A stretch of 64,000 nucleotides of DNA, from assembly GCA_030431975.1 (NCBI GenBank), contig JAUIHP010000012.1, positions 62,001 through 126,000 of the forward strand. Reading direction: 5' to 3'. This document shows positions 7,065-63,800 of the stretch, piece by piece. Position 1 is the stretch's first letter; every line of letters begins with the position of its first letter. Both the position numbers and the translations under genes were made by a program. The notes under the pieces are model-generated. The model worked only from the letters and a program-made list of their open reading frames with translations, made no database searches and was not told the DNA's origin. Origin of the DNA: a bacterium. Its GTDB lineage: Bacteria > Eisenbacteria > RBG-16-71-46 > CAIMUX01.

Positions 7065-7733
7065 CTACCGGAGATAGGTCGACTTGATTTGCCCCCAGGA
7101 ACTCCGACTGGTGGGAGTGGGGCCGCAGTCGAGGACCTCCGCACCGATGTACAAAGCATGGGTCGGTCCCCAGGCGACAGAAGGGTTCTGCCAACCGGTC
7201 GGAAAACCCAACCCTGGGGCGACGTTGGTTTTCGGACGACCCATTCCACCGTCGAGATCCGCGCCGATCGCCCACGCCGCAATCTCGCCGGGCCAGTCAC
7301 CCCAATAGCCGATCCACCAAGTCGATTCCAAGCAAGGCACGTCATCCAATAGAACCGCGTGTCGACTAAAGTTCGGCCAGAGCGAGACCGGCCCCGGGTC
7401 GACGGCCGTCTTCATGAACACGACGGCGCCGGGGACTCCGTCGTCGTCGTCCCAGACATAAACGTCCATGGTGGACGCGCCCTGCTTGTCCGGAAAGGTA
7501 CTGAAGTCGAAGACCGCCGAGCAGATACGAACCTCGCCGGAATATTGCTCGGCGAATGCTCCGTAGTACGGTGATTGAACCCCATCGTAGCGCCACGCGT
7601 AACCGGTATCGATTTGTCCGTCGGCGTTGAACAACAAGGTGCCGCACCCTCCGGAATGCGACTCCGGCGCGACTCCGGCAGAAGCCGCTGACGCAAGGAC
7701 AAGGGCCATCAGCGCAGGCGTCAGTCCATTCAA
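7065..7733 (-). CDS. Secreted protein with C-terminal SWGxIK tail
   Basis: Unknown function, exported. Probable TTG start at 7733, six bases after a GGGGG stretch, gives a signal peptide NGLTPALMALVLASAASAG; longer in-frame starts lack a reason to be preferred. The mature part is a beta-rich, aromatic, Cys-containing domain with VYVWDDDDGVPGAVVF and WWIGYWGDWPG. It ends with SSWGQIKSTYLR, which closely resembles the end of the protein at 32799-33704 (TSWGAIKRQFR); that protein also shares the VVWEDDNGQPG motif. The two are paralogues. The shared tail may be a sorting signal (inference). Last gene of a minus-strand run with DUF72, TerB and GT-C genes. Confidence 0.75.
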   Translation of the reverse strand: MNGLTPALMALVLASAASAGVAPESHSGGCGTLLFNADGQIDTGYAWRYDGVQSPYYGAFAEQYSGEVRICSAVFDFSTFPDKQGASTMDVYVWDDDDGVPGAVVFMKTAVDPGPVSLWPNFSRHAVLLDDVPCLESTWWIGYWGDWPGEIAAWAIGADLDGGMGRPKTNVAPGLGFPTGWQNPSVAWGPTHALYIGAEVLDCGPTPTSRSSWGQIKSTYLR

Positions 7734-31362: not shown

Positions 31363-32802
31363 TCATTCCGGCTGGCGGACGTACCGAACCAGATAGGCCA
31401 GGTGCAGCGGGCTCGGCTTCTCTACGAAGCGTCGCAGAAACGGTTCGAGAACGGCGTGCACTTCGGGGTCCGTCTCCGCCAGACACAGCCATCCAGGTAG
31501 GTTTCCGATCGCAGCATTGAAGAAGCCCTTCCGCCCACAGATGGACGTATAGAAGCTCTCAAACTCGGCGTCGTAGAAACCCTGCGTCACCGTCTTGGCG
31601 AAGCCACCGAGGTCTTCTTCGTCGAAGACGACCCCTGCCCGCGCGAGTTTGACGACCGGTTCGATGGTGTAGTAGGCATGGGAGACATCATCGCAATTCA
31701 GCATCTGGTCTCGAGGGACTGGATCCGGATACGACGGCTCATAGGCCCAGGCGAGCGCACCCTCTCCCTGCCGTTGCACTCGTCGTTGAAAGAAGCGTGA
31801 CAGCTGGGCCGACCGCTCCACCAGACTGGAGTCTCCGGAGAGCTTCCCGGCCAGCCACAGGTCCCACGCTACGACGAGGACGCGGTTGTAGGGCTGTGCC
31901 TTCCTTGTTTCGTGAGCAGCCGCAACCGGATGAACGTAATGTCCCTCATTCTCGAGCGGACCGGATACGAACATGTCGTCGTAGCTTCGCAGAGTGTCCA
32001 GGCACTTCTCGAGAAGCTCCCTACGAGCGTCGGGTGTGGCGGCAGCCAGAACCGGCCGCCTCTCCGCGTCTCCCGGACTCGAACCCGCTTGTACGGTGGC
32101 ACCGCTCGACACGACCGGAACCAGCACTCCCTCCAGGTAGGCCAGAGTCTCCAGAATCGGCTGCAGAATCAATCCGCTGTGAACGAGAAAGCTGGTTCGA
32201 CGCCCGCTTCCGTATCGTGTCGAACTCCATGCCGGCCGAGCCTCGCCGGAGAAGTCTTCGAGCCCGGTTTGGTCATCGCGTAGCTGCATCGCGCGGACGG
32301 CAAAGTCCCAGGCCCGTTCCAGATACTCCGCGTCGCCCGTCACGTCGAACATCTCATTCAGTGCCACCGCCTCACGGCTGACTTTCCACGCCAGTGTTCC
32401 GTCGTCATTGGTCATCGCGACGAATGCGGTGTCCCAATGCGCAGCCGGAAAGGATGCGTCCCAGGACTCACGGCTCGAGAACCGTTCCGGGTCCCGAACC
32501 AATGTGTCACGGAACGTCTCGTGAAAGCTGAAGATGGCAGAGCGGCGCGGCGGGTCCCCGAGACTGCGAAGACGTTGTTTGAGGGACCGAAGCGGGTCAC
32601 GCGCTTCCAGTTCGTCGGAGATGGACGCTCCACTGTCAGAGCTCGCGTGGACCGGTCTGGAGCCGAAAGTCGTGAATAGGCTGACAGCGACGGCCGCGAG
32701 CAAGACAGCGTGGAGCCGCGCGCCACCCAAACGAACTCTGATCTCACGGAAACACATTGAGTTTCTGGACTCGACACACATGAAGAATGGGAGTGTCTTC
32801 AT
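31363..32802 (-). CDS. Exported helical (alpha/alpha-toroid-like) protein, unknown
   Basis: About 479 aa. ATG 32802 overlaps the upstream stop by 4 bases (ATGA). N-terminal hydrophobic stretch LHAVLLAAVAVSLFTTFGS follows a basic segment, consistent with export or anchoring. The mature part is built of regularly spaced helices with AHWDTAFVAMTNDDGTLAWKV, DAEYLERAWDFAVRAM, SSTRYGSGRRTSFLVHSG and DDVSHAYYTIEPVVKLARAG, a pattern like six-hairpin toroid glycan-active enzymes. No catalytic motif can be fixed, so enzyme status is open. Coupled to an exported SWGxIK-tail protein upstream. Confidence 0.65.
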   Translation of the reverse strand: MKTLPFFMCVESRNSMCFREIRVRLGGARLHAVLLAAVAVSLFTTFGSRPVHASSDSGASISDELEARDPLRSLKQRLRSLGDPPRRSAIFSFHETFRDTLVRDPERFSSRESWDASFPAAHWDTAFVAMTNDDGTLAWKVSREAVALNEMFDVTGDAEYLERAWDFAVRAMQLRDDQTGLEDFSGEARPAWSSTRYGSGRRTSFLVHSGLILQPILETLAYLEGVLVPVVSSGATVQAGSSPGDAERRPVLAAATPDARRELLEKCLDTLRSYDDMFVSGPLENEGHYVHPVAAAHETRKAQPYNRVLVVAWDLWLAGKLSGDSSLVERSAQLSRFFQRRVQRQGEGALAWAYEPSYPDPVPRDQMLNCDDVSHAYYTIEPVVKLARAGVVFDEEDLGGFAKTVTQGFYDAEFESFYTSICGRKGFFNAAIGNLPGWLCLAETDPEVHAVLEPFLRRFVEKPSPLHLAYLVRYVRQPE

Positions 32803-33704
32803 CGGAACTGACGCTTGATCGCTCCCCATGACGTTTCGTTCACGGGAACCGGACACCAGCCGATGACGACCCCAATTCCTAGAGCCGCAGGACGGCCGAT
32901 GATGTCTTCGACCGGGTGCCAACCTTCACTCAGTTCGGACCCCGGTGGGACGTAGGTCATTCCAACGCGGCGGGCCGCCGGCGTGTCCGAGTTCTCGTCG
33001 ATGGAGTCGACGGCCAAAAGCACGGTGCACTCTTCAGACTGCCAGTCGCCGCGAAAGCCGGCCCAGAAGCCACCGCGCACACCGACTTGCCCGACCTCGA
33101 AAACTTCGTACGCCCGCTGTTCGATCAGCGGCCAGGACACGACCCGGTTGAGCGGAAACGGCCCGACCGTCCCAAGGATGTCACCAGGCTGGCCATTGTC
33201 ATCTTCCCAAACGACGACCTCGATGTTCTGGTCCGGTGCATCGCTCACGGACGCGGCAGCAACGACCAGGTGACAAATCGCTCCGGCCCGATTCTCGGGC
33301 GTCTCGAAGTACTCCGCGAAACTTGCCACTTCGGATGTGAAGGACTTTCCCGTCCACCCGATGGCCGCGTCGTAACGGCGATCCGTGTTCATGAAATACT
33401 GCTGCTTGGCCTGGCAACTGCAGTGAAGCGAGGTCGGCTCGACGGACTGCGCGACGACCTCACCGGCTCCGGCCGTCGATTCGAGACACAGAACAGGAGT
33501 GTCCGCAGCTGCCTGGACATCGCCGGAACTCGCCGATCCCAGCGCAGTGAGCAGTAGCGCGGAGACGACGGTGAGCCAGCGGTGCCACGACGTTCCCCGG
33601 GTCGCCAGCGCGGTCACGCCGGGGAGCCGGCGGTCCCACGACGTCCCTCGGTCACCCGATTCCGAGCGCGAAAGTCGCTGGGGCGGCTGTGGATTGGAGG
33701 TCAT
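32799..33704 (-). CDS. Secreted protein with C-terminal SWGxIK tail, paralogue
   Basis: 301 aa from ATG 33704 (TTG 33710 is also in frame). Long basic N-region then the hydrophobic core WLTVVSALLLTALGSASSG, consistent with a signal peptide. Mature part: CSCQAKQQYF, NIEVVVWEDDNGQPGDILG, GGFWAGFRGDWQSEECTVLLAVD, ending TSWGAIKRQFR. The WEDD.G.PG strand and the tail match the protein at 7065-7733. Role unknown; extracellular or surface display is inferred from the signal peptide and the shared tail. Confidence 0.7.
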   Translation of the reverse strand: MTSNPQPPQRLSRSESGDRGTSWDRRLPGVTALATRGTSWHRWLTVVSALLLTALGSASSGDVQAAADTPVLCLESTAGAGEVVAQSVEPTSLHCSCQAKQQYFMNTDRRYDAAIGWTGKSFTSEVASFAEYFETPENRAGAICHLVVAAASVSDAPDQNIEVVVWEDDNGQPGDILGTVGPFPLNRVVSWPLIEQRAYEVFEVGQVGVRGGFWAGFRGDWQSEECTVLLAVDSIDENSDTPAARRVGMTYVPPGSELSEGWHPVEDIIGRPAALGIGVVIGWCPVPVNETSWGAIKRQFR

Positions 33705-38883: not shown

Positions 38884-39296
38884 GCCTTGGGAAATAATCC
38901 TCACCCACTGACTTGCAGCGCCTTAACTCCATACCTCACAAGCACTTAAAAATTGGCGCATTCGCACCGACGGGATTCCGTCGAACTTGGACGCATCATC
39001 AATGTGTCACCCATGAATGACATCGCCTACTGTCTCGCGATCTCCAGAAGAACTAATCGTCATCACAGCAACGACTTAGGGACAACTGCCGGGCCCATGC
39101 GTCAACAGCGAGCGACACCCTGTGTCCGTCATGCATACATGACACATCGCTATTCCCACTCCCTGGAGCGACTTGCGCGCCAATCGCCCGAGAGATGGGC
39201 GGACCGGCCGTTGGCCGAATCCCTGATCCAACAACCGACGACCGTCGCCTATACTGCCCCGATACATTTGGCGCTACCGAAAGGAGTTCCGGCCCC
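38884..39296 (+). promoter_or_regulatory. Divergent region upstream of ileS
   Basis: Region between the peptide array and ileS. TATACT at 39250-39255 is a good -10 box for ileS, about 40 bases before its ATG; no matching -35 is clear. No T-box-like structure or gene was recognised, and the long open frame through 38953-39296 is a shadow in front of ileS. Confidence 0.4.
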
Positions 39297-42200
39297 ATGG
39301 TCCCGAGCAAACCCCCGCAGACGATCCGTTTCCCCGAAATGGAAGAGCAAGTCCTCTCCTTTTGGAAAGAGGGGCGGATTTTTGCTCGGAGCATCGAAGA
39401 GAAGGATCCGGAAAACACCTGGTCGTTCTACGACGGCCCGCCCTTCGCTACCGGGCTGCCCCACTACGGTCATCTCCTGCCGGGCACGATCAAAGACGTC
39501 GTTCCCCGCTACTGGGCGATGCGCGGAAAACGCATCGAGCGTCGATTCGGTTGGGACTGCCACGGACTTCCCGTCGAGTTCGAGATGGAAAAGACACTCG
39601 AACTGAACGGCCGCCGCGAGATCGAAGAGTACGGAGTCGACCGCTTCAACGAAGCCTGTCGCGGAATCGTGCTTCGCTACACCTCGGAGTGGCGGGAGAT
39701 CGTCGAACGCCTCGGCCGGTGGATCGATTTCGACAACGACTACAAGACCATGGACGTCGACTTCATGGAGTCGGTTTGGGCCGTCTTCAAAGGACTCTGG
39801 GATCGGGGCCTCATCTATGAGGACAAGAAGATCCTCCCCTACTCGAGCCGGATCTCGACGCCGTTATCCAACTTCGAGGCCAACCTGAACTACCAGGACG
39901 TGCAGGATCCGTCGATCACGGTCAAGCTTCGGATCAAGGGCGAGTCGGACAAGTTTCTCCTCATCTGGACGACGACACCTTGGACGTTGCCCGCGAACCT
40001 CGCCGTGGCTGCACACCCCGAGTTCACCTACGCCGAAATCCGGGACACGGAGTCGGGCGAAACCTACATCGCCCTCGAGTCCCTGCTCGCTCCGCTCTAC
40101 AAGAAGCACGGAGGCGCAGATGGCTACGAGGTCCTGCGCACGATGCCGGGAACGGAACTGGGAGGCACCGAATACGAGCAGCTCGTCCCGGCCTTCGAAG
40201 GTCGCCTGCCTGAGAACGCGTTTCGTGTCCACCTGGCCGACTTCGTTACGGCTGACACCGGTACCGGGTTGGTTCACATCGCACCGGGCTTTGGCGAGGA
40301 CGACTTCAACGTCGGCAAGGCTCAAGGCCTCGACCCGCTCGACCATCTTGATGACGAGGGCATCATCACGTCGGCGGTCCCGCTCTTCGAAGGTCGTTAC
40401 TTCAAGGACGCGGACAAGGAAGTCATCAAGTATCTGAAAGACCGGGGGCAGGTTCTCCGTCAGGAGACCTACGCGCACAGCTACCCGTTCTGCTATCGAT
40501 CGGACACGCCGCTGATCTACCGGGCCATCTCGACCTGGTTCGTCAAAGTCACCGCGATTCAGGACGAACTGCAGGCGAACAACCAAGAGATCCACTGGGT
40601 GCCGGAGCACTTGCGCGACGGTCGCTTCGGAAAGTGGCTGGAGAACGCGCGCGACTGGTCGATCTCCCGAAATCGTTTCTGGGGGAACCCACTCCCTGTC
40701 TGGCGGAATGAGGAAACGGGCGAGTCGCTTTGTGTCGGGAGCCGCGCCGAGCTCGAAGAGCTGACCGGTGAAAAGGTCGACGACCTCCACAAGCACTTCA
40801 TGGACAAGCTCGTCATCAAGTCTCCCAAGACCGGCGACGAACTTCGACGGATCCCACACGTCCTCGACTGCTGGTTCGAATCCGGATCGATGCCCTACGC
40901 ACAACAGCATTACCCCTTCGATATGAACGACGAGGAATTCGACAAGATCTTTCCCGCCGACTTCATCGCCGAAGGACTCGACCAGACTCGCGGGTGGTTC
41001 TATACCCTGCTCGTCCTGTCGACGGCGCTGGGAAAGGGCCCTGCGTTCCGGAACGTCGTCGTCAACGGCATCGTTCTGGCCGAGGACGGTCGCAAGATGT
41101 CGAAGCGGCTCCGCAACTATCCGGACGCCTCCGAGGTGTTCCACAAGTTCGGCGCGGACACGCTGCGCATCTATCTGTTGCAGAGCGGCGCTGTGCGTGG
41201 CGAAGACCTGCGTTTCAGTGAAGAGGGCCTCAAGGAGATGACGCGCAAGGTCCTCATCCCCTTTTGGAACGCCTACTCTTTCTTTGCAACGTACGCCTCG
41301 GTCGACGGCTGGGATCCGGCCACCCAGTACACGGACAAGCGCGAAGCCGAGCTCGACCGCTGGATCTCGACCAAGCTCGAAACTCTGAAGGCGGAGATCC
41401 ATGAAGAGATGGGCCGCTATCACCTGTCCAAAACGGTGCCGCCTCTGTTGTCCTTCATCGACTACCTGACCAACTGGTACATCCGTCGCTCACGCCGGCG
41501 CTTTTGGAAGTCGGCCAACGACGATGACAAGCGGCAGGCCTATTCGACGCTCTACCACGTACTCGTCGACTTCTCGAAACTGGCGGCGCCGTTCATCCCG
41601 TTCCTGACCGAGGAAATCTACGGTCGGTTGCGGCTTGGCCACGAGTTGGTCGGATGCGATTCAGTGCACCTCGATGTGTATCCCGAACCACGGGAGCTGT
41701 CGGAAGAGGAAAAGGCGCTGGAATACGCGATGGACTTGACGCGCGACGTCGTCAACCTCGGGCGCGAGCTTCGGGAGAAGGTCAAGGTCAAGACGCGCCA
41801 GCCGCTCAGCCGGCTCTTCGTGGGCACAGCCCACCCGGACGATGCCGAGAAGTTGGCGCCGCTCTTCCCCATCGTGCAGGAAGAGATCAACGTCAAGGCC
41901 GTCGAGTTTCATCCCTTCTCCGAGATGGCCCACTGGAACGTGAAGCCGAACTTCAAGCTTCTGGGCAAGGAGCTCGGCCCCCGAATGAAGGAGTTCCAGG
42001 CGGCCACCCAGTCCCTGGGCGACGAGCAGGTCTTCTCGATTCTGGAAGGTGGAACGGTCGACATCCTGGAAGCGCCCCGTGGAATGGAAGCGTTCCTCAT
42101 CGACTTGGCGCCGAGCGAGAGTTTCGGTCATCCCTGCCACGCTTCGGGAAGCATCGTCGTGGCCTTGGATACGGATCTCTCCGATGAGTTGCGTGACGAA

Positions 42201-42455
42201 GGACTCTCCCGGGAACTCATCAATCGCGTGCAGAAACTACGGAAGGACTCCGGCCTGGACGTCGAAGACCGGATCCATCTCAGCGTGGAAGCGCCCGACG
42301 AGATGGGATCGGCTTTCTCCCGCTTCCAGAAACTCATCGAGTCCGAAACGTTGTCATCTCTGCAGCTTCAGGCGCCCGGCGATGGCATGTCGCAGAGTGC
42401 AGAGAAGATTGAGGGCGAGGCTGTCGCCGTCGGCATCTCGCGGATCGGCAGCTGA
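39297..42455 (+). CDS. ileS: Isoleucyl-tRNA synthetase, eukaryotic-like (IleS2 type)
   Basis: Charges tRNA-Ile; cytoplasmic. HIGH motif in PPFATGLPHYGHLLPGTIKD and KMSKS as GRKMSKRLRNYPD; the CP1 editing domain contains TTPWTLPANLAVA and DTGTGLVHIAPGFGEDD. The wording around HIGH and the length (1052 aa), with no C-terminal zinc-cysteine cluster, fit the eukaryote-like IleS2 group rather than the common bacterial IleS1, the group often linked to low mupirocin sensitivity. ATG 39297 is preceded by AAAGGAG; upstream in-frame sequence is non-coding. No second ileS is visible here. Confidence 0.95.
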   Translation: MVPSKPPQTIRFPEMEEQVLSFWKEGRIFARSIEEKDPENTWSFYDGPPFATGLPHYGHLLPGTIKDVVPRYWAMRGKRIERRFGWDCHGLPVEFEMEKTLELNGRREIEEYGVDRFNEACRGIVLRYTSEWREIVERLGRWIDFDNDYKTMDVDFMESVWAVFKGLWDRGLIYEDKKILPYSSRISTPLSNFEANLNYQDVQDPSITVKLRIKGESDKFLLIWTTTPWTLPANLAVAAHPEFTYAEIRDTESGETYIALESLLAPLYKKHGGADGYEVLRTMPGTELGGTEYEQLVPAFEGRLPENAFRVHLADFVTADTGTGLVHIAPGFGEDDFNVGKAQGLDPLDHLDDEGIITSAVPLFEGRYFKDADKEVIKYLKDRGQVLRQETYAHSYPFCYRSDTPLIYRAISTWFVKVTAIQDELQANNQEIHWVPEHLRDGRFGKWLENARDWSISRNRFWGNPLPVWRNEETGESLCVGSRAELEELTGEKVDDLHKHFMDKLVIKSPKTGDELRRIPHVLDCWFESGSMPYAQQHYPFDMNDEEFDKIFPADFIAEGLDQTRGWFYTLLVLSTALGKGPAFRNVVVNGIVLAEDGRKMSKRLRNYPDASEVFHKFGADTLRIYLLQSGAVRGEDLRFSEEGLKEMTRKVLIPFWNAYSFFATYASVDGWDPATQYTDKREAELDRWISTKLETLKAEIHEEMGRYHLSKTVPPLLSFIDYLTNWYIRRSRRRFWKSANDDDKRQAYSTLYHVLVDFSKLAAPFIPFLTEEIYGRLRLGHELVGCDSVHLDVYPEPRELSEEEKALEYAMDLTRDVVNLGRELREKVKVKTRQPLSRLFVGTAHPDDAEKLAPLFPIVQEEINVKAVEFHPFSEMAHWNVKPNFKLLGKELGPRMKEFQAATQSLGDEQVFSILEGGTVDILEAPRGMEAFLIDLAPSESFGHPCHASGSIVVALDTDLSDELRDEGLSRELINRVQKLRKDSGLDVEDRIHLSVEAPDEMGSAFSRFQKLIESETLSSLQLQAPGDGMSQSAEKIEGEAVAVGISRIGS

Positions 42456-48098: not shown

Positions 48099-50738
48099 CT
48101 ACCGGACCAGGACGAGTCGTTGGCCGATTCGTGAGAGCGGAGTGCGCACTTCGTAGAAGTAGACCCCGGAGCCCAACTCACGACCGGCGTCGTCAAGTCC
48201 ATCCCAGACCATCTCTACGGTTTGGCCTCCCGTCAGCAGCCGCTGCTCGGCCAGGCTCCGGACCCGCGCACCCGTGGCATCGAAGATGCTGACATCCACG
48301 CGAACGTCCGCTTCGACGTCGAAGTAGATCACGCCCGCGGACGTCATCGGGTTCGGGCGAACGCCTCCTAGTCGAACGGAAAGCGGTCCCGTGGGTTCCC
48401 CGAACTCGACGTCGGCCGGTGCGAGACTGCGTTGAACAACGATGCGGTAAGCGGCTCCCTCCGCGGCGGGGCGAAGACTCGATGAAGCCAGGAATGCCTG
48501 TCCCCCGGTGGAGAAAAGCGCGGGACGGATCTCAGGGGAGGCTTCCGCAAGCAGTGCGACACCGGAGGGATCCATGACCGTCCCGTCTTCGAGAACCCGC
48601 GTGCCGAAGATGTCCGTCCGTTCGTCGAAGTAGATGAGTGCGCCGCGCTTGTCTTCCCAAGCGACGATGAACTCGGTGCCGTTCCAGGTCACGCACGGTC
48701 GGAGCTGCTTGTCCTCCGCATCCGAGATCCCGAACGGGCTGCCCTGGAATGAGCCGTCCTCGTTCATAATGACGCCTTCGAGGTCCGTCGTCGCGGTGGC
48801 AATGGTTCCCGTGACCGCAACGAACAACGCTTTCGTCGGCGAGACCGCGACCTGGGGGCGCCATCCCAGCGGAACATCGATCGCTCCCGCCGTGGTGCCG
48901 TCCGGTTCGATGATCGCCGCAGTCGTTCCGGCAATCGTGTTGTCGTGCGAGATGTTCCGCTGCCAAACCGCAAGCCAGCGGTTTCCCCAGGTCTCTACGC
49001 GGGGATGCCTGGCAAAGATGAGAAAGCCGTCGATCGGCGTGGACTCTATGTCGAGATTCGTCCCCGTCGCACCGTCGACTCGCATCGAAAACGCAGCCTG
49101 CCAGTGTGGATTGTCATCGATGTAATCCAACGCGACGACGAGAAAGACATCGCCGACTGCGGACAGGTCAGGGTCACGACCGTCCATCACCACGCGGGGC
49201 GAAGGATCGAGAAACGTTCCGTCGGCAAGCATCCGCCGCATGAACACCTGAATCCCGTCCGACCAGGTAACCATGAAGAGCGAGCCGTTCCAGGCCGCCC
49301 GGACTTCGCTCAGTGACGGTGCTCCGCGGTGTGAAAAGGGTCCGACCGCGACTTCGATCGGCTCCACGTCCATCGAAACCCCATCATCGTTCAACCGTTG
49401 AACCAAAACCCGGGCGCTATCGGAGCCGCGGGAAAGAAACGCCACCAGATGCACACCATCGCCTTCGGCAAAGTCGGCACCGAGCTGGGCCGGAGCTCCG
49501 ACGGAGACCACCGATTCGTTTCCGAATTGGGTGTCCGTTCCAACCTGACCGCCGCGGACATCTTTCGGATCCGCGGCGGCACTGACTCCGTCGTTGTAGA
49601 CCAACTGCACTCCGCCTCCCGGAACACCGGCCAATCCGGGTTGGCTGACCGGGGAAACGGACGGGGTCACCCAGAAACCTCCCGGATCCAGAACGGCGCC
49701 TTCGGCCGTGACCCGGGCCAGCCTCGGACCGCCCCAACTCACCCAGTACAGGCTGCCGTCCCAGACGACATCGACGCAGCAGGTCCCATCCTGATTGCCT
49801 CCGGTAAAGAGAGTGACCGGCGAAGTCAGCCCACCATCTTCCATGACACGGACGGCATCGATCGTCGCCAACGGTGGCGACCCGGAGGCCCGAACGACGA
49901 GAAAGTCGGTCCCGTCGCTGGCCACGCGTTGCCCAAAGGGCAGTGCCGAAGTGCCGAGGAGGGAAAGCTCGGGGGTATAGCGCCGGGCGCGGGGAGAATC
50001 GAAGGAACCGGACCAAACCATCATGTACTGGTCGCCGGCGAAGGCGATGTCAAACTCCATGAGAAAGTTCGTGGAGTGAACGAGAAGCCCGCCGGGATTG
50101 GAGACGACACCGTCGTCCGTGACCCTGACCGCCACCAGTCCGCTAAGGGGTCCGTCGGCTTGAAAAGTGACGACCCAACCGCCACCGCCTCCCGCAACCT
50201 CCAGCCCAGTGTAGTAGGAATCGTCGTTGTGAATCGAAATTGGGGAGGCATCCAGAATCTGGCCGTCCGGCGAGACCCGCACGGCGCGGAGTTCGTCATA
50301 GGTCGGAAGGGTCTCAGTCTGTTGCTTCCAGACGACGAGCCAGTTTTGTCCGTCCCAGGCGACGCGGGGCTCGATCTGGTCGCCGAGCGCTTCATCGACG
50401 ACGAACGGAACGGGGTCAATGAGACTCCCGTCACTGTCTAGACGCGCCGCGTAGATGTCCGCTCCGGTGCCTTCCGAGGCGAACGGCGGGTAGTCGTCGG
50501 GGCTGGAGCGATAGTCCGTCCAGACCGCGAGGAACTGGGATCCGCCTGCGGCAACGTTGGCGCCCTCCTGGACGCCGGCCGCCGCTGCGACGAGATCATC
50601 GCCCGAAAGTAGAATTGGAGCCGAAAAAACCAGGTCTTCAGCTTTGGCGGGAGTTACCGCAAAGAGCCAGGAAATCACCGTAATCAGCGCGCAAGTGGAA
50701 CTTGCGTGCACGCGGAACGGGGCAAAATGGCGGCGCAT
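48099..50738 (-). CDS. Exported beta-repeat protein with FlgD-like C-terminal domain
   Basis: 879 aa. Signal peptide (STCALITVISWLFAVTPAKA), then ten or more repeats of a strand pattern (F)LAVW.D/(Q)NWLVVW/ (E)FIVAWED alternating with ARLDSDGSLIDPVPF-type turns, so probably one or more beta-propellers. The last ~90 residues form a FlgD/type-IX-like domain: VRPNPMTSAGVIYFDV, VSIFDATGARVRSLAE, MVWDGLDDAGRELGSGVYFY, ending QRLVLVR. AAGGA eight bases before ATG. Surface or secreted protein of unknown ligand. Confidence 0.82.
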   Translation of the reverse strand: MRRHFAPFRVHASSTCALITVISWLFAVTPAKAEDLVFSAPILLSGDDLVAAAAGVQEGANVAAGGSQFLAVWTDYRSSPDDYPPFASEGTGADIYAARLDSDGSLIDPVPFVVDEALGDQIEPRVAWDGQNWLVVWKQQTETLPTYDELRAVRVSPDGQILDASPISIHNDDSYYTGLEVAGGGGGWVVTFQADGPLSGLVAVRVTDDGVVSNPGGLLVHSTNFLMEFDIAFAGDQYMMVWSGSFDSPRARRYTPELSLLGTSALPFGQRVASDGTDFLVVRASGSPPLATIDAVRVMEDGGLTSPVTLFTGGNQDGTCCVDVVWDGSLYWVSWGGPRLARVTAEGAVLDPGGFWVTPSVSPVSQPGLAGVPGGGVQLVYNDGVSAAADPKDVRGGQVGTDTQFGNESVVSVGAPAQLGADFAEGDGVHLVAFLSRGSDSARVLVQRLNDDGVSMDVEPIEVAVGPFSHRGAPSLSEVRAAWNGSLFMVTWSDGIQVFMRRMLADGTFLDPSPRVVMDGRDPDLSAVGDVFLVVALDYIDDNPHWQAAFSMRVDGATGTNLDIESTPIDGFLIFARHPRVETWGNRWLAVWQRNISHDNTIAGTTAAIIEPDGTTAGAIDVPLGWRPQVAVSPTKALFVAVTGTIATATTDLEGVIMNEDGSFQGSPFGISDAEDKQLRPCVTWNGTEFIVAWEDKRGALIYFDERTDIFGTRVLEDGTVMDPSGVALLAEASPEIRPALFSTGGQAFLASSSLRPAAEGAAYRIVVQRSLAPADVEFGEPTGPLSVRLGGVRPNPMTSAGVIYFDVEADVRVDVSIFDATGARVRSLAEQRLLTGGQTVEMVWDGLDDAGRELGSGVYFYEVRTPLSRIGQRLVLVR

Positions 50739-50855
50739 GTCTCAATCCTTTCACGACAGATCGCAGCTTGGGGTCCCGAAGAGAAGAGGGGACCGCGACT
50801 TATTCTGCAGTAGGGAATGAGGATGCGCCAAATACGCAGTTCTGCCCCGCGACGG

Positions 50856-51941: not shown

Positions 51942-52020
51942 GGCTTTCTCCTGAAATAGCTGGAGTTGCTCTCTGTTGATGGAAGAGCGCAGCCGAGTGC
52001 CTGCGCTCTTCTGTACTCCG

Positions 52021-52437: not shown

Positions 52438-52629
52438 AGATTCTCCTTTCAGATTCTTGTGACGAACACGTCCAAATCCTCCCCAACGGGAAAGCTGGGC
52501 AGGCGAGTCTCATCAGACGCGTATCGGAAAGGGCGAAGAGGTGGTGTCTTGATACACCCAATTTCGGGTGGAGACGCACTGACCCGATCTATCGGCAAGT
52601 AAATCGCGTCAAGGCGGTCCGTTCGCTGC

Positions 52630-55137
52630 TTAGCGCGAATCTCGACCGAGGAAGATCAACTTCTTTGAGACCGTTCGTCCGAGGGCGGACAGTCTGTAGA
52701 GATAGGTGCCCGCCGGCACTCGGTTTCCCTGTCTGTCGGTTCCGTCCCAGGTAGTCCGATGCCGCCCGGCTTCGAATGCATCGTCAACCACAACCCGGAC
52801 CCGACGACCCGCAACGTCGAATATCTCCAGCGTCACATCTCCGGCTGCGGGTAGTCCGAACGAAATCTGCGTGGAGTTCGTAACAGGGTTTGGTTGATTG
52901 GGAAAGAGCTGCAGGTCATCGAACGACGGCCCGATTGGAACGCCCGCCGCCCGCACAGCGGCATCGTCCGCAAGTGTCGCCTCGAGAACGTAGACATACG
53001 ATGCATCCGCGGTCGCACTCGGATCGACGTACGATCGCGACTTGGGAGGCAGGAGTTCGCTCACCTTTGCGACGTGATCCACGCCGGATTCCCGCCGGTA
53101 AACACGGAACCCGACCACATTGCTACCTGCAAGCACATCCCATCGAATCTGGGCGCCGGAGGCACCCCAGCTCACCTCCACGACGCGAATCGGGTTGACC
53201 AGACCCGGTTTCAGATGAACTCCCAGTGGCATCGACCTTCCCAGTATCCGCCCCGCGGAGTCCCTCGCTTCGACCTCGAACTCGACCGGGATACCATCGG
53301 GAAGATCGAGAACTCGATGTGATCGCCCCCCCAATGGTATGGCCGCAGAGGGTTGCCCGGACGTCCCCGAATGGATCACCGCGTACTCCGTCGCATCGCT
53401 ACGTCCGAAAGTTTCGAAGCCTAGAGTGACACTGCGGCCCAGTGTGTCCACCTCGGCGATCCAAAGGTCTGGCGCCTGGGCCTCTGCGGACCATGGGAAC
53501 CGAAACGCACGGTAGTTGAAGACCTCGGGTTCGTACCGCATCTCCCAGGCCACACTTCCATCCGGTCGCACTTCTGTTTGGACGCCGGAGTTTCCAAAAG
53601 AGACGAACGTGTTTCCGTTTGGCAACCTCTGTGCATATCCCACGATCGGACCGTAAAGGTCTTCGCGGTGCTCATACTCCCACACCAAGGTTGCCGTTCG
53701 CTTCACTTCGTCGAGGCAGTACTCCACTGCGCGCGAAACCTGTGGTCGGTGGGCAGTCCCGTTGTCAAACAGAAGGACGTTGCCGTTCTCGAGCCGACGG
53801 ATCGCATGCTGTCGAGAGAACCAGCGGTCATCGTCGATCAGTGTGAACTGGTTCCTAAGCCCGCCCATGCGCCATAGAACTTCACCAGTCTCCCGATCGA
53901 TCTTCGTGATCTCGTTCGTGGACCGGCCCGAGAATAGGATGCTGCCGTCGAAGTCCGTCTCGATCGCATTGCAATGCACGTAGTCGATTCGCTGTGAAGT
54001 GAAGTCGAAATCCTGTGCATCCGTGATCTCGAAGTGATCCCAGCTCCTCCACTGGAAAACGACGTTCTTGTCATCGTCAAGTTCCTGAATGACCAGCCCC
54101 GCCACACGGGCGTCCTTCTGTCCTCCCTCGACGATCCGACTCATGTCCACCGTCTGCCAGTCGTAGATGATGATGAGCACATGCCCGTTCGGAAGCATTT
54201 CGAAGTCGTGAAAGTCCAGCTCCTCATAGCCGTTCCCGGCGAGAAAGGTGTCGACGGGAGTGTAGGTCGCATCCAAGGTGACAATACGTGCCGGACTCGC
54301 AAGCTCCGCGTAGCTCAGAAGTCCGGTGGCCTCATGAAGCTTGAAGTCGTGGACTCTGGACTCCGTTTCCCGGAAGAACACCGGCGACCCATCGTTGTCG
54401 AGGACGATCAGGTGTGGGGCCCTCTCCACGTTGGCCGTTCTCAGGGACGCGTTTGTCGTGAAGACGAACCCCGGGGCCGGGCCATCGTTGATGTCCACCG
54501 TGAATCTGGGGAAGTCGAACGGAAGAGGAAACGGTGACACTCGCTCGGAGGTCACGAGATCGATTCCCGGCATCGACTTCTTCTCCTTTCGGGATTGCAG
54601 CTGAGGTTGGCCGCTGGAACTCCATGGGATTGGAGCCTCCGCCCAGTCACATTCGACGTGGAGACATCGAGGGGTCTTGTCCCGTGCCTGTTCGGGGGAC
54701 GTGTGAAATCGGTATTCCAACACCACCCCCGCATCCGGTCCCGCTCCTCGGATCGACACGGTCACGGTCTCCGCGAATTCGAAAGGACTGGACGGACGAA
54801 ACGTGATGACCGCGCCGCCGTCTGCCGGTTTCCATTCCCCGGAATGTGGACCGGAAGCGTCTCCGCGAACCTCGACCTGCTGCTTCCAGTCGAGGCTCTC
54901 AACGAGGCTTGGATCGATGGGACGAAGGATCAACGAAGCCCCGACCGGAACGAAGACCGCATCCGGTTTCGGAGAAAGGAACGAGAAGCCGAACTCTTCC
55001 GTCGCCGCCGACGGACTCCCGATCATCAGAAAGAGCGTTACGAGTATGGCGGGAACGCGAGGAAACCTGAGGCCAAGCAGGACAGCGGATCGCCTCCGGA
55101 TCAATGATGACCCGTTCGCCCGAAACGGAATCGGCAT
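52630..55137 (-). CDS. Aryl-sulfotransferase-like exported protein with FlgD-like domain
   Basis: About 835 aa from ATG 55137 (GTG 55176 is an alternative). Signal peptide FPRVPAILVTLFLMIGSPSA. After a beta domain, residues ~190-560 resemble the ASST (PF05935) propeller: LIVLDNDGSPVFFRE, FHDFEMLPNGHVLIIIYD, YVHCNAIETDFDGSILFSGR, ITKIDRETGEVLWRMGG, FSRQHAIRRLENGNVLLFDNG. These contain His residues expected in the active site. Then a fibronectin-III-like segment and a FlgD-like end (FPNQPNPVTNSTQISFGLP, EIFDVAGRRVRVVVD, WDGTDRQGNRVPAGTYLYRL). It may transfer sulfate between phenols, or be a non-catalytic relative. Confidence 0.82.
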   Translation of the reverse strand: MPIPFRANGSSLIRRRSAVLLGLRFPRVPAILVTLFLMIGSPSAATEEFGFSFLSPKPDAVFVPVGASLILRPIDPSLVESLDWKQQVEVRGDASGPHSGEWKPADGGAVITFRPSSPFEFAETVTVSIRGAGPDAGVVLEYRFHTSPEQARDKTPRCLHVECDWAEAPIPWSSSGQPQLQSRKEKKSMPGIDLVTSERVSPFPLPFDFPRFTVDINDGPAPGFVFTTNASLRTANVERAPHLIVLDNDGSPVFFRETESRVHDFKLHEATGLLSYAELASPARIVTLDATYTPVDTFLAGNGYEELDFHDFEMLPNGHVLIIIYDWQTVDMSRIVEGGQKDARVAGLVIQELDDDKNVVFQWRSWDHFEITDAQDFDFTSQRIDYVHCNAIETDFDGSILFSGRSTNEITKIDRETGEVLWRMGGLRNQFTLIDDDRWFSRQHAIRRLENGNVLLFDNGTAHRPQVSRAVEYCLDEVKRTATLVWEYEHREDLYGPIVGYAQRLPNGNTFVSFGNSGVQTEVRPDGSVAWEMRYEPEVFNYRAFRFPWSAEAQAPDLWIAEVDTLGRSVTLGFETFGRSDATEYAVIHSGTSGQPSAAIPLGGRSHRVLDLPDGIPVEFEVEARDSAGRILGRSMPLGVHLKPGLVNPIRVVEVSWGASGAQIRWDVLAGSNVVGFRVYRRESGVDHVAKVSELLPPKSRSYVDPSATADASYVYVLEATLADDAAVRAAGVPIGPSFDDLQLFPNQPNPVTNSTQISFGLPAAGDVTLEIFDVAGRRVRVVVDDAFEAGRHRTTWDGTDRQGNRVPAGTYLYRLSALGRTVSKKLIFLGRDSR

Positions 55138-56198: not shown

Positions 56199-58928
56199 AT
56201 GCCATCCCCGATCTACAACCCGATCCCGCACCCACTTACGATTCTGTTTCTGGGTCTCTTGGGAACCTGCAGCGCCGGCGTGAAGTCCGTCGCTCTGGCT
56301 GGAAGCGAGCCCGGTCCGGACCCGTTCGAATTCTCCTGGCTCGGCTTCAACGCCGGGTCGAGCGCCTTTCCCGGAAACCCGGAACCGTTCGAGAGGGATC
56401 CGACAGCCATGACCTCCGCGGATTTCAACGGAGACGGCCTGCAGGACATCGCCATTTCGAACTACGAGTATGCCGCACCCGGTGGAGGAACCGACGGCAT
56501 GTCCGGTTTCGTCGTACTGCTCGGTATGGGGGGAAACCGCTTCACGGAGCCCAGCCACATCACCGTGTCGTCGCAGGGTTGCTGGGACATCGTCGCGCAC
56601 GACTTCGACCTCGACGGTGATCCTGACATTGCCGTTTCGATCGCCAATGCTTTCTGGGAAGGGACCGGAGTGAGGATCTACCTCAACGACGGATCCGGAC
56701 AGTTTCCGGAGTTTCGCTCGGCGGCCGTGGCCAACGGAGCGAGCGGGCTGGCGGCGGGAGACTTCGACGGCGACGGATCACCCGACCTGGCCGTCGCTAG
56801 TTTCCAATCGTTCGAGGAACAGGGCATCGTCTCGATTCTTTTCGGGGACGGCACAGGCAGTCTGAGTGCACTCACACCTTACTCGGTAGCGGCACGCCCC
56901 TGGAAGCTGGAGTCCGCGGATATGGACGGTGACGGTGATACCGACCTGGTCGTCGCGCACGAGCTTCACGCCGTCACCGTGCTCGAGAACACGGGCGCAG
57001 GACTGTTCCAGTCGCAGGAGTATTCGGGATTCTTTCCGCTCCAGGGCGGCCAGGCCTACGCCGCGTTGGCTCTGGCGGACGGGGACCAGGACGGAGACCT
57101 GGATGTCTACTACACGAATACCCGAACCGGCCAGCCCGGTCTGATTCAGCGCTACATCGTACATCTCCAGAATGACGGAGGAATCCTCAGTCGAGGAACC
57201 GACATTCCGGCTCCTTCCGCATGCGACCTCATATCCACGGACTGGAACGGCGACGGCTGGGCCGACTTCGCGACCGTCCTTCACAGCGGAAGGGACGGGG
57301 ACGGTCCGCAGATCATTCTTTCCGACGGAAACGGCGGGTATCACGAAGCGGCTCCTGTCGCGGCCGGTCAAGGGACCTTTGCCGTGCTTGCCGTCGACAT
57401 CGACGGTGATACCGACCCCGATCTACTGACCGCCGACCGGTACTCGATGGCACTGACCGTACATGACAACCGGGGCGACGGGATCTTTCCGCGTCTTCAG
57501 ATCTTCGACATCGAAGGACTGGGAGTCCGCCTGGATGCCGGCGACGTGGACGGCGACGGAGACCTCGACATCATGTCGTCGAGCGAGAGCTTCGGTACTC
57601 CGGGATCCCTGATCCGCAACGAGGGTGACGGCACGTTCGGACCTCCGGAGGTCTACACACACAGCGACACGTACGGCCGGGGCGTGGCCCGCGCGAAGCT
57701 CCGGGACCTGGACGGGGACGGAGACCTCGACCTGCTCTACAACGGCGCGCACACCGACTTCCATGACGGTTACAACTTCTACACCGCGATGAATGACGGA
57801 GCGGGTCAATTCGGCCCCATCATTCAGTGGTTCATCGGCACCTGTGGCAACGGCGACGTCGATGCCTTCGACCTGGACGGCGACGGAGATCTGGACGTCG
57901 TCAACTGCGAGGAACTCGCGTGTGCGGGCGGCCCAAGCGCCAACCGGCTCTACATCAGCCTGAACCGGGGAGATGGCACCTTTGATCCCGCCTACACCGT
58001 TCAGATCAGCACGGGCCCGCATGCCCTTCTCGGCGGTGACTTCAATGAGGATGGAGACGTCGACCTGATCACGACCCACTACATGCCCTACGGCTTCCGG
58101 GACTTCATCAACGTCCACATCGGCAACGGCGACGGAACCTTCGTCGAGGAGCAGGTCTATCAGACCGGGCAGGGCCCACGTTGGATCGTCTCCGAGGACT
58201 TCGATGGAGACGGTCACGCCGATCTGGCCACCGCGAACTCCGGCCAGGACGGTGAGGGAAGAGAAACCATGACCGTTCTCTTCGGCACCGGACTCGGTAC
58301 TTTCACCGGAAGGACCGACTACTACCTCCCCTTCTCCCCGGACTTGCTCGGAGCGACCGGGCTGGCCGCGGGAGACACCGACGGCGATGGGGATATCGAC
58401 CTCATGGCCACGACCGCAGCGAACGCACTCGTCCTCTACGAAAACGACGGAACCGGGAGCTTCGAGTTCGAGATTCGCTACGGAATGATCTGGGGACCGT
58501 GGAACCCCATCTTCGCGGACTTCAGCGGAGACGGAATCGAAGACGTAGCTTCGATCGGTTGGGATGGCGACTCTGAAGCGGAGGGCGGAGGCGTTCTGCT
58601 GTTGATCGGCAAACGGCAGGATCCTGCCAACGCTCCTGACCCAACTCCGGAGTCCTATTCTTCGAGAATCGCAGAAGTCCGGTCCGCGCCGAATCCGAGT
58701 CGCGAGTTTACTCGGCTGGAACTCAGGATTCCCGAGTCCCAGGATGTAGATATCTCCGTCTTCGATCCGTCGGGACGTCGGAGCCTGGAGGTCCACCGGG
58801 GTCGACTCGAGGCCGGCACCACTCACCGGTTCATCATCGATGCCCGCAACCTTGCCAGTGGCGCCTACTTCGTCAGGATCACGGGAGAGCGATTCCATCG
58901 GACGGAGAAAATCGTCGTCCAGAGATAG
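56199..58928 (+). CDS. Exported FG-GAP/VCBS repeat protein with FlgD-like C-terminus
   Basis: 909 aa. Signal-like N-terminus (PLTILFLGLLGTCSAGVKSVALA). The body has about a dozen FG-GAP/VCBS units with calcium-binding DxDxDG loops: DFNGDGLQDIAISN, DFDLDGDPDIAVS, DFDGDGSPDLAVAS, DMDGDGDTDLVVAH, DGDQDGDLDVYY, DLDGDGDLDLLYN and others, forming one or two seven-bladed propellers. The last ~80 residues are a type-IX/FlgD-like domain (SAPNPSREFTRLELRIPE, DISVFDPSGRRSLEVH, LASGAYFVRI, ending KIVVQR). GAAGGAG precedes ATG. Immediately followed by the HTH-M29-AraC regulator. Confidence 0.88.
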   Translation: MPSPIYNPIPHPLTILFLGLLGTCSAGVKSVALAGSEPGPDPFEFSWLGFNAGSSAFPGNPEPFERDPTAMTSADFNGDGLQDIAISNYEYAAPGGGTDGMSGFVVLLGMGGNRFTEPSHITVSSQGCWDIVAHDFDLDGDPDIAVSIANAFWEGTGVRIYLNDGSGQFPEFRSAAVANGASGLAAGDFDGDGSPDLAVASFQSFEEQGIVSILFGDGTGSLSALTPYSVAARPWKLESADMDGDGDTDLVVAHELHAVTVLENTGAGLFQSQEYSGFFPLQGGQAYAALALADGDQDGDLDVYYTNTRTGQPGLIQRYIVHLQNDGGILSRGTDIPAPSACDLISTDWNGDGWADFATVLHSGRDGDGPQIILSDGNGGYHEAAPVAAGQGTFAVLAVDIDGDTDPDLLTADRYSMALTVHDNRGDGIFPRLQIFDIEGLGVRLDAGDVDGDGDLDIMSSSESFGTPGSLIRNEGDGTFGPPEVYTHSDTYGRGVARAKLRDLDGDGDLDLLYNGAHTDFHDGYNFYTAMNDGAGQFGPIIQWFIGTCGNGDVDAFDLDGDGDLDVVNCEELACAGGPSANRLYISLNRGDGTFDPAYTVQISTGPHALLGGDFNEDGDVDLITTHYMPYGFRDFINVHIGNGDGTFVEEQVYQTGQGPRWIVSEDFDGDGHADLATANSGQDGEGRETMTVLFGTGLGTFTGRTDYYLPFSPDLLGATGLAAGDTDGDGDIDLMATTAANALVLYENDGTGSFEFEIRYGMIWGPWNPIFADFSGDGIEDVASIGWDGDSEAEGGGVLLLIGKRQDPANAPDPTPESYSSRIAEVRSAPNPSREFTRLELRIPESQDVDISVFDPSGRRSLEVHRGRLEAGTTHRFIIDARNLASGAYFVRITGERFHRTEKIVVQR

Positions 58929-58947
58929 TGAAAGGAACGACCGCGTC

Positions 58948-60831: not shown

Positions 60832-60844
60832 AGCAACGGCCCAC

Positions 60845-63800
60845 CTACCGCGGTCTTCCGATCCGGGTCAGCTTCCCGCCGCCGCCGGACTCACCACCGG
60901 ACTCGACGCGGTAGAAGTAGACGCCCGGCGCAACCGAGACTCCACGGTCCGTTCGGCCGTCCCAGTTCAACGACCACTGCCCGGCACTCTTCAACTCTGG
61001 AGAGTAGGTGCGGACCCTCCGCCCGGTCGCGTCGAAGATGGAGACGCCGACTTCGGCCGGGTCGGTCAACGTGAACCGGATCGCGGTCGAGTTCTCGAAG
61101 GGATTGGGGAACGCCGGCTGCAGATGAAGAGAGGTTCCACCGGGAAGCTCGAGCCCGCTGTCCTCCATACCGCTGACCACGGTCTCCGGCGGGTGTGAGA
61201 CGAAGACGTAGTCGAACCCGTCCGAGAACCAGTCGATGTCCATGATCACCTGGTTGTCCCGCAGTTGCGGATCCCCCTGAATTACCACACTGAAGACCGG
61301 ATCCGTCGTCGGCTCCGCCGGCTCGAAGACTTCGTAGAAGTACTCCTCCTCGACGAGAAGGTGGAGAGGTCCACCGCTGCCGTCATGGGATTCGAGAATC
61401 CAATCGAACTGTTCTGTCGGCCCGTAGCCGGATGGCACGACGATGGAGCCTCCCGGTGCGATGTTGAAGAAGCTGGAGAAGAGAGGCGTCTCGACTTTGA
61501 TCTTGGTCGTCCAGGTCTCCAGGTTCGTGATCCGGATCTCCTCGTGTCCCTCGAACGGACCGATTCCGTAGTGCGCTTCGCCGTTGGGTTCGATCGCGAC
61601 CTCGGCTTCCCGCGACACGACGATGCGCGCGTTCGTCTCCGCGACCTCGGCCGACGCATGAAAGAGATTCATCTGCTGACTGTACGTCTGCTGGGACCCG
61701 GACCGGATTCGGGAGTCATTGAGCGCCGAAGCGGTGATCCCACCCTGGACGTACACATCTCTGAACTGCCAGTCTTCCCAGAGTTCGATCGTCATGCAGT
61801 TTCCGACGCCCAGGCCGATGAGACGGCCGGCATCCTGTCGGGCTGTCGGACCGTCGACGGTTCCAAACGTCGTCGCGACTGCATCTCCGAAGCGTCCCCG
61901 TGCGGAGACGCACCACGTCGTCTGTGCAGCCGGGGTGAACCCGCCTTTGAGCCCGGTTCCCGTGATTCCCATGTTGTTGTTGAGAATCCAGCTCTGGAAA
62001 CTGTTGAAATTGTCGATGAGAACCGCTCCCGTCGGCAGAATCCGGGCGGCGGTGTACGAACTCGTCGTCGAGATCTCGCGGAACATCGCGTTCCGCAACG
62101 CCTCTTTGCTCAGGAGAGCCATGTCGTAGGCCGTGGAGTAATGGTCGCCGAGATCGCGTCCGACGGCTTCCTGTTCGAACCCGTTGGGATTATTGAACGC
62201 CGTGTCGAACATCCCGATCTCGTCGGCTCTCTCGTTCATTCGCTGGACGAAGAGCGGAAGAGACACCTCCGGTCCCAGCGAGCCGTAGAGCAGGTCGGCG
62301 ATGGCATGGGCCGCATCGTTGCCGGAAATGAGAAGCGCCATGTGCATCAGGTCTTCCAACGTCACCGTCTCGCCCTCGATCAGGTCGGCCGAGGAGCCTC
62401 CGATGTTGTTCGCGACCCAGGCAGGGACGGTGTACGAAGTGTCGAGGTCGACATAGTCGGGGTCGCCCGGCGACAACGACGCTCGCTCGCAGGCGAGCAG
62501 CACCGTCATGATCTTCGTCGTACTCGCGATGTAGACCTGTTCAAAAGGCTTCTGCGTGTAGACGAGTTCACCCTGACAGTCCATGACACAGGCGGTCTTG
62601 TGAGTTTGGAAGTAGAACTGGCGCCACGGGGCGACGACGTGGACGAGACCTGCGTAGTCGTCCTCTCCCGGAGCCCCGATCACTGCGGTCCCGCGGTTGC
62701 TGGAATCGAACTCACCACCAAGACTAAGCCCATAGCCGAGTAGGTCTGCGGTCTCCGGAGTCTCCCCGATCGGAGTTTGCGAGTAGACGTAGTAGCCTTC
62801 GTTGCCGATTCCGGAAACGCCTCCGAGAAGGAGATGGCAGATTCCGGCGTCGCTTCCAACGAAGTCGGCGAGAGGAGAGCCGATCATCAGGTCGTCGAAG
62901 TTGTCGTCTTCGAAACGCCCCGATGCAAGGAAGAGGCCGAACCGCTCGTCGTCTCCGCTGGGACCGTCGAACATGTCGCGGGTCAGCGCCACGCCGGTGT
63001 CATAGTTGGGACCATCCACCGATCCCATGACCGCCACAACGCGACCGGCTCTCTGAACGCTCCCAAGGTAGCGGTCGGGCTCGCCAATGAAGATCCGGTC
63101 ATAGACACCGACCGAAGTCGTGGCCAGGGACATTCCGAAGTCGGCTTGTGCCGCGCAGTCATCCACCACCTTTGCGGTGAAGCTGAGGGCTGCCCCTTCG
63201 ACCAGCCCCGAGTTGCTGCCCGGCACCATGTAGCAGACCCCGGCGCCGCCCTGTCCGAAGGCATCACGGTGCGGGGCGCCGACGATGAGATCCTTCCGCG
63301 TGTCGCCAATGACGTTCCCTGCGGCGAGCGAGAGCCCGAAGTAGTCGTCGATCTGATACGAGGCGCCCAGATCCTCGGCCGTGAACAGCTGGTCGGCGCC
63401 GAAAGGCCCGTTTGCGGCGCCGTAGCGAACGAAGACGGTTCCCGCCTGTTGGCCCTGGCCCGGACTGCCCACAGCAACATCCGGATAGAGGTCGTTGTTG
63501 AAGTCCGAGATGACGATCGACTGGCCGAAGAAGTCTCCGTACTGCGAGAAGCCGTTCCAGTGTTCCTGAGCGTAGGCCACCCAAGGCTGCAACCCGTTGG
63601 AGCTGCCGTAGTACATGCCGATCCAACCGGCCAAACTCACGCCGTTGTAGGTCGCGGTCGGCATTCCGACGACGAGGTCATCGTAGCCGTCGCGGTTCAG
63701 GTCCCCGACGGCGAGCGTGTTCCCGAATCGCATGTCGGTATGAAGTGACAGACCGAGCTGGCCCGGCTCGAGGAGCGCCGCGGCAACATGCGTCAACCCT

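Follow-up and report, generated by a model that had tools for sequence, protein, structure and literature searches.

A short C-terminal tail shared by apparently exported proteins of Eisenbacteria and other bacteria, a probable sorting signal

Introduction

C-terminal signals on exported proteins have led to the envelope machines that belong to them: PEP-CTERM to exosortase, GlyGly-CTERM to rhombosortase, and the T9SS domains to the SprA translocon. The PEP-CTERM, GlyGly-CTERM and MYXO-CTERM signals are tripartite, comprising a motif, a transmembrane segment and a basic cluster, and LPXTG is likewise accompanied by a transmembrane segment and a basic cluster. Domain families whose C-terminal signals are exchangeable bear the name "choice-of-anchor".

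According to two articles, the T9SS reads C-terminal signals that are unrelated to one another, type A via PorV and type B via PorP/SprF (PMC12618676), and a type C signal exists as well (PMC10202324). The T9SS signals described in the passages considered range from ~70 to >200 residues, and none of them is as short as the tail reported here (PMC12618676, PMC10202324). One review describes C-terminal domains of this kind as confined to Bacteroidota (PMC10202324).

Here we describe a short C-terminal tail that was noticed on two proteins encoded in a single stretch of Eisenbacteria DNA, and we compare it with these systems.

Results

Two homologous proteins of the window share a C-terminal end

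The window is the whole stretch of 64,000 nucleotides that was analysed. Both proteins are encoded on its minus strand (Table 1), the plus strand being closed by stops at both loci. A preliminary description had attributed to each of them a signal peptide and a V.VW(D/E)DD.G.PG strand, and a signal-peptide-like N-terminal segment and the strand can indeed be seen in both translations. The two proteins are 28% identical and homologous over most of their length (E 2e-13), and their shared end alone is therefore weak evidence. A Pfam search gave no real match to either protein, and neither was matched by the T9SS type A models TIGR04183 and PF18962 up to an E-value of 10. In NCBIfam, the second protein weakly resembles choice-of-anchor R (E 0.022, below cut-off). 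The AlphaFold model of the first protein, for which the second was the only relative, was unusable (mean pLDDT 28.7).

Table 1. Positions in the window of the two tail proteins, their parts, and the FlgD-like domains of other proteins
Feature	Position	Strand	Remarks
First exported protein	7065..7733	-	Frame open from 7760; its domain family has 27 matches in the genome of origin
C-terminal tail of first protein, SSWGQIKSTYLR	7068..7103	-	Variant: an additional residue precedes the final R
Probable signal peptide of first protein, MNGLTPALMALVLASAASAG	7674..7733	-	Cleavage site by inspection; heuristic export score
Shared domain strand of first protein, VYVWDDDDGVPG	7428..7463	-	
Second exported protein	32799..33704	-	Frame open from 33710; distant homologue of the first
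C-terminal tail of second protein, TSWGAIKRQFR	32802..32834	-	Canonical
Shared strand of second protein, VVVWEDDNGQPG	33183..33218	-	
FlgD-like / T9SS type A-like domain	48120..48356	-	19.9 bits, below cut-off 23; protein 48099-50738
T9SS type A sorting domain (TIGR04183)	52654..52893	-	32.5 bits, cut-off 23; arylsulfotransferase-like protein 52630-55176
T9SS type A sorting domain	58689..58922	+	31.1 bits; FG-GAP protein 56199-58928
T9SS type A sorting domain	60890..61111	-	32.9 bits; FG-GAP / D-Ala-D-Ala carboxypeptidase-like protein 60845-63796

Elsewhere in the window, the isoleucyl-tRNA synthetase at 39195-42455 (+) is 50% identical to the copy of a Latescibacteria genome (G052) and only 36-37% identical to the copies of a genome of its own family (G001) and one of its own order (G003). 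From these identities a gene transfer is possible.

The tail recurs in the genome of origin on diverse, apparently exported proteins

The whole genome of origin (6.19 Mb) was searched for the pattern W-G-x-[IV]-K-x-x-[YF]-R followed by a stop (TGGGGNNNNRTHAARNNNNNNTWYMGNTRR). It contains 17 exact matches and none to the reversed pattern that served as control, which confirms that the end noticed on the two window proteins is a real shared tail. All 17 matches end open protein frames, and the protein types are varied, including by eye Cys-rich repeat, SdrD-like and lipoprotein-like proteins and others. A looser pattern (WG-x-[IV]-K, then one to six codons, then a stop) returned 52 raw rows against 2 control hits. 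These rows include duplicates as well as out-of-frame and TGG-ended ones, and counting from the fetched stretches gave at least 43 distinct tail genes. The first window copy was found only by the looser pattern.

Among the positions that the looser pattern leaves unfixed, S or T stands at -1 in 42/43 tails of the genome, P at -6 in 38/43, E or D at -3 in 35/43, and every one of the 43 has F, Y, W or H at +7. A final R is frequent (27/42) without being invariant. The core reads [E/D]-x-[S/T]-W-G-x-[I/V/L]-K-x-x-[Y/F]-R, is placed at or a few residues from the C-terminus, and follows a short, acidic, often proline-containing linker.

Many tails of this genome (e.g. those of L014, L017 and L227) come after Cys-rich repeat arrays of the form GACC(F)..DGSC.....C...GG.(Y/F)QG.(D/G)T.CDPNPC.

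Two further views of the tail were tried and rejected. Treated as an amphipathic helix, it had a mean hydrophobic moment of 0.486, compared with a mean of 0.357 (sd 0.133) for permuted columns, and 42/200 permutations were as high; the moment thus does not rise above that of permuted columns, and a helix lying on the membrane is not supported. A terminus resembling the BAM beta-signal was dropped because the spacing misfits the consensus.

A signal-peptide heuristic identified an export-like N-terminus in 230 of the 247 tail ORFs that have their own start, so that the N-terminal Sec signal peptide expected of T9SS cargo is predicted for most carriers. The 247 ORFs are a mixture from the genome of origin, its phylum and other stretches, and 39 ORFs cut at their 5′ end were left out. 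On other likely genes of the window the same heuristic was positive for 13/33, and some of these 33 are probably exported themselves. This heuristic is permissive, and it also overlooks some genes (it fails on 56199-58928 and 60845-63796); the export context of the tail proteins is supported by it to that extent.

Pfam was run on 91 of the 140 tail proteins counted (29/30 from the genome of origin, 62/110 from the genome_contigs collection). At E 0.001 the matches were to right-handed beta-helix (11), CBM20 (3), LTD (3), SdrD_B (2) and MAM (2), with single matches to beta-lactamase and redoxin and a few more families, and more than half of the proteins matched no Pfam family at all. NCBIfam matches among the 91 included families whose names refer to exchangeable C-terminal anchors, namely choice-of-anchor E (3.4e-43), V (6.7e-28) and J (1.1e-14), on one tail protein each, a family anchored by MYXO-CTERM, and M36 peptidases dependent on myxosortase or rhombosortase (cut-offs not shown). 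Neither TIGR04183 nor any other T9SS domain was found among the families of these 91 proteins at E 0.001, and no matched model of Pfam or NCBIfam covers the tail itself.

The preliminary description had called for a genome-wide search for exported proteins with the tail, and would have given up its proposal of a signal had the tail been confined to one family and packed in the domain core. With 17 exact matches, and at least 43 distinct tail genes by the looser pattern, the search yielded many different carriers with predicted export, and the refuting condition does not apply. The tail thus satisfies one expectation of a sorting signal, namely that many different exported proteins encoded by one genome share a C-terminal motif.

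At least one tail protein of the genome has a lipoprotein-like N-terminus (L012:1504-2232; G000:C50). The C-terminal region of another protein, L253, is similar to that of L012, but L253 scores as Sec type.

Tail and T9SS type A domain exclude each other behind the same domain

In the genome of origin, 24 proteins contain the domain of the first window protein (27 matches), and 22 of them, the first window protein included, have a complete C-terminus; two incomplete proteins, cut by contig ends (L004/L240 and L236), were left out. Fifteen of the 22 end in the tail and seven in a T9SS type A-like (FlgD-like) domain, while none has both ends and none has neither. The 15 tails comprise 11 of the I form and four with L at the fourth core position (L223, L226, L234 and L239). 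L223 has the most divergent of them (SWGDLKARLGTRPSSKDRRR), L233 lacks the final R, and the reported frame of L237 has a stop inside the domain match. All six type A-like ends that were tested passed the TIGR04183 cut-off, and the seventh (L230) was classed by eye. Among the FlgD-like proteins of the window, three of four are above this cut-off.

Since either the tail or the type A domain, never both and never neither, follows the same domain, the tail stands at the position of a sorting signal. Because it replaces a known secretion domain, it probably specifies the destination of the protein. A second expectation of a sorting signal, that it be exchangeable with another one behind the same domain, is therefore met (15 vs 7, n=22). 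The preliminary description had also held the tail to be separate from the FlgD-like domains of other window proteins, and this agrees with the finding that the two are alternatives on one domain family.

The domain in question (VYVWDDDDGVPG...W.IGYWGDWPG) is expanded in the genome of origin, is found in only 6/47 genomes of the phylum, and corresponds to no Pfam family. The window protein at 60845-63796 (-) unites FG-GAP repeats, a Peptidase_S11 domain and a type A sorting domain, and is apparently a peptidoglycan peptidase addressed to the outside.

The tail might carry no signal at all and simply be the last strand or helix in the fold of a single domain, passed on together with that domain, as the homology of the two window proteins would allow. 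However, the same domain lacks the tail where a type A domain follows, and the tail is present on beta-helix, CBM20, LTD, beta-lactamase, redoxin, lipoprotein-like and FN3-like proteins. Moreover, in the one usable structure model, that of a Bacteroidota protein described below, the tail is outside the fold. Carrier diversity and the exclusivity test together led us to reject the tail as the last strand of a single domain, and we regard inheritance as part of one fold as very improbable.

A tag for periplasmic retention, quality control or proteolysis, read by a PDZ-type protease or a chaperone, usually takes the form of a short free C-terminal peptide, which is the form seen here. Within one family, however, the tail replaces a T9SS secretion domain, and many carriers have the architecture of surface proteins; a tag of this kind is consequently an improbable explanation, if a less remote one than a shared fold.

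The tail is widespread in the phylum and occurs in other lineages

The exact tail is present in 43/47 genomes of the phylum, with no control match in any of the 47; the genomes without it are G011, G029, G038 and G043. Exact tails number 0-3 per genome in one family (f11) and up to 17 in the other families of the phylum. G001, of the same family as the genome of origin, has match coordinates identical to those of the genome of contig CAIMUX010000127.1 (Candidatus Eisenbacteria bacterium Loclat_bin-10216), and the window's organism is accordingly of a lineage that NCBI labels Candidatus Eisenbacteria.

The genome_contigs collection was scanned with a stricter pattern and gave at least 114 matching stretches, whose spread over species is that of a sample. 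Among the matches listed, all but nine are labelled as Eisenbacteria, Effluviviaceae, Krumholzibacteri-, Latescibacter- or simply "bacterium". The other nine are from two Bacteroidota isolates, an "Acetofilamentum" MAG, Coatesbacteria, UBP1, Archaeoglobus, Clostridia, and Gemmatimonadetes (two contigs, both of one MAG). The Archaeoglobus and Clostridia matches were rejected as chance-like, the former being a 78-residue frame without a signal peptide and the latter a frame with an internal stop. When 14 genomes behind named contigs were searched whole, each contained 1 to 62 exact matches, and the control gave 0 in 14/14.

The highest number among the genomes searched, 62 exact tails in 3.2 Mb, belongs to G057 (BHB10-38_Bin_124). 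On the Coatesbacteria contig (L097:4172-6046), two adjoining exported proteins with the tail end in WGEIKAGYR and WGQIKASYAP.

Most inspected Bacteroidota matches are one kind of protein

A tail match was found in 70 of 296 sampled Bacteroidota genomes, exactly one in 69 of the 70, and the control gave two single hits. Among the 42 distinct genomes of the 70 that were inspected, 37 have one kind of protein, predicted to be exported, FN3-like, ~125-175 residues long and ending in WG-x-IK-x-x-FR; beyond 17 aligned members, the family was assigned by eye. The remainder are two tails with an unresolved start (L273, L274) and three chance-like matches (G109, G256, G350). Only eleven columns are invariant in the alignment of the 17 members, and the tail supplies six of them with its W, G, I, K, F and R. 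No NCBIfam model covers this family, and a PDB sequence search with it produced nothing convincing (best E 0.02).

An AlphaFold model built from three sequences of the Bacteroidota protein has a beta domain at residues 21-120 (block mean pLDDT 77-93). The tail is modelled as a helix with a pLDDT of about 48, outside the confident fold. Core packing, the other half of the condition mentioned above, is accordingly not seen in the one model that could be used, though this is a Bacteroidota protein and not a window protein.

The single-copy state of the protein fits a component of a system as well as a cargo. Its gene neighbourhood differs between lineages and gave no pointer to a receptor. In some Bacteroidota (L289, L290, L291, L294 and L300), the gene directly 3′ of the tail gene encodes a putative metalloprotease of the MXAN_6640 family, and in three of these cases its frame, as drawn, overlaps that of the tail gene. 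All five downstream metalloproteases tested were above the NF045524 cut-off, and in 3/5 the T9SS type A model also matched, though below its cut-off.

The counts from all these genomes bear on the simplest explanation, chance recurrence of a short motif. Chance may account for individual matches, three in Bacteroidota and two in the genome_contigs collection having that appearance. As an account of the tail it is already contradicted by the reversed control (0 in the 47 phylum genomes, 0 in the 14 further genomes and two single hits in the 296 Bacteroidota), and we give it practically no weight.

Genomes with the tail generally encode SprA

Within the phylum, 40 of the 43 genomes with the tail have a SprA match (PF14349 or TIGR04189), as do 14/14 genomes behind named contigs. 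In G036, G041, G056 and G058 the match was by TIGR04189 alone and below cut-off, and matches of about 50 residues (G008, G018, G043) were left uncounted. No clear SprA was detected in the tail genomes G008, G009 and G018, which are 69%, 86% and 82% complete. Apart from these three, the hosts encode SprA, as is expected for T9SS cargo.

In Bacteroidota, SprA was present in 70/70 tail-bearing genomes compared with 228/296 overall (hypergeometric 6e-10, phylogeny ignored); the count of 70 was read from tables by hand and includes the three chance-like tail matches. Another 158 Bacteroidota genomes have SprA without the exact tail. In ten Bacteroidota genomes without SprA_N, TIGR04189 was also absent.

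Tail-less genomes of the phylum carry SprA too, in 3/4 cases: the match is strong in G038 (97% complete), and in G011 and G029 it is partial, by TIGR04189 and below cut-off (E 6.5e-39 and 3.2e-32). SprA is therefore no predictor of the tail within the phylum. PorV was considered as a discriminating partner and rejected as uninformative, since PorV-like proteins are found in 47/47 genomes of the phylum, 1-5 in each.

We also observe that an Eisenbacteria lineage has type A sorting domains along with SprA and PorV-like proteins (in the genome of origin, in the phylum, and, for the window, at 48099-63796), in contrast to the confinement of such domains to Bacteroidota described in the review cited above (PMC10202324).

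The distribution of SprA leaves room for a sorting or anchoring signal that is read by a pathway other than the T9SS, for example by an unknown processing enzyme or a peptide-binding scaffold of the envelope. The tail resembles no T9SS domain type, and at least one tail protein (L012) is lipoprotein-like, an N-terminus that is unusual for T9SS cargo. Three tail genomes lack a clear SprA, and many Bacteroidota as well as three tail-less genomes of the phylum have SprA without the exact tail. Against such a pathway, the tail occupies the slot of the T9SS type A domain, all 70 tail-bearing Bacteroidota genomes encode SprA, and the genomes without a clear SprA are only 69-86% complete. We consider a separate pathway a substantial possibility, though one held at distinctly less than even confidence.

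Discussion

The tail is conserved and widespread, excludes the type A domain within one family, and occurs in genomes that encode SprA. It is very probably a C-terminal sorting signal. The preliminary description had proposed a short secretion or anchoring signal, a proposal that the diversity of the putatively exported carriers supports; which of secretion, anchoring or another fate applies has not been shown. A sorting role is thus well supported, and the route and the receptor are not shown.

Recognition by a receptor, passage by the T9SS and the final place of the tail proteins are inferred. In the mechanism that we propose, the carrier would enter the periplasm by its N-terminal signal peptide (Sec), and the free tail would then be recognised by a dedicated receptor that decides the further fate of the carrier. 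The function of the tail would be that of the Ig-like T9SS type A domain carried by sister proteins. The most likely route would be the same one across the outer membrane, with the SprA translocon and a shuttle of the PorV or PorP/SprF kind, and the destination would be the cell surface or the medium. If the tail is a sorting signal, the chances that the T9SS reads it or shares its route are about one half. For the proposal as a whole, a short sorting signal on Sec-exported proteins that is read by a receptor and most likely directs them through the SprA outer-membrane route, our confidence is likewise evenly divided, there being no experiment and no receptor.

A broader hypothesis, which we put forward tentatively and at somewhat less than even confidence, is that the tail marks a new sorting pathway based on a peptide of ~10 residues, without a membrane segment or folded domain and with an unknown receptor. 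This pathway would have been conserved since Bacteroidota and the group of Eisenbacteria, Krumholzibacteriota and Latescibacterota last shared an ancestor, and would serve a single core exported protein in many Bacteroidota but dozens of proteins elsewhere. It might be a fourth, minimal T9SS class or a separate outer-membrane machine for export or anchoring.

If the T9SS reads the tail, its translocon accepts a peptide of ~10 residues, far below the known folded domains; if it does not, there is an undiscovered route of export or anchoring. By either route, the tail would allow the surface and secreted proteomes of several uncultured phyla to be predicted. The tail is directly testable, since named Bacteroidota strains carry it, for instance Hymenobacter ginkgonis HMF4947 and Adhaeribacter terrigena BT258. 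No description of it was found among the open-licence PMC papers searched, which does not establish its absence from print.

Among known systems, the T9SS type A domain (TIGR04183 / PF18962) is similar in being C-terminal, in being carried by Sec-exported cargos, several per genome, and in following the same domain family; SprA and PorV-like proteins are present in the phylum of the genome of origin. The type A domain, however, is an Ig-like domain of ~70 residues, whereas the tail has about 10-15 residues and no sequence resemblance to it. Neither the two window proteins (up to E 10) nor the 91 scanned tail proteins (at E 0.001) have a TIGR04183 or PF18962 match in their last 70-80 residues, and the tail is too short for an Ig-like beta-sandwich, being a low-confidence helix in the one usable model. 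The type B (TIGR04131) and type C signals offer a parallel in that the T9SS reads several unrelated C-terminal signals (PMC12618676, PMC10202324), but those domains have about 100 residues or more and other motifs.

PEP-CTERM/exosortase, GlyGly-CTERM/rhombosortase and MYXO-CTERM/myxosortase resemble the tail system in having a short C-terminal signal on many exported proteins per genome, and they share choice-of-anchor families with the tail proteins. They differ in that the tail lacks a hydrophobic segment, its end being a single aromatic-Arg. The transmembrane segment and basic cluster that define these signals are missing, the consensus around and after the W containing no hydrophobic stretch, and no model of such a signal was among the matches of the 91 tail proteins. 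The choice-of-anchor families of NCBIfam are a further point of contact, types E, V and J each matching one tail protein, but the name denotes the domain and not the signal. The tail belongs to the general kind of C-terminal sorting signals and, with neither a transmembrane segment and basic cluster nor a folded domain, has a form unlike those known to us.
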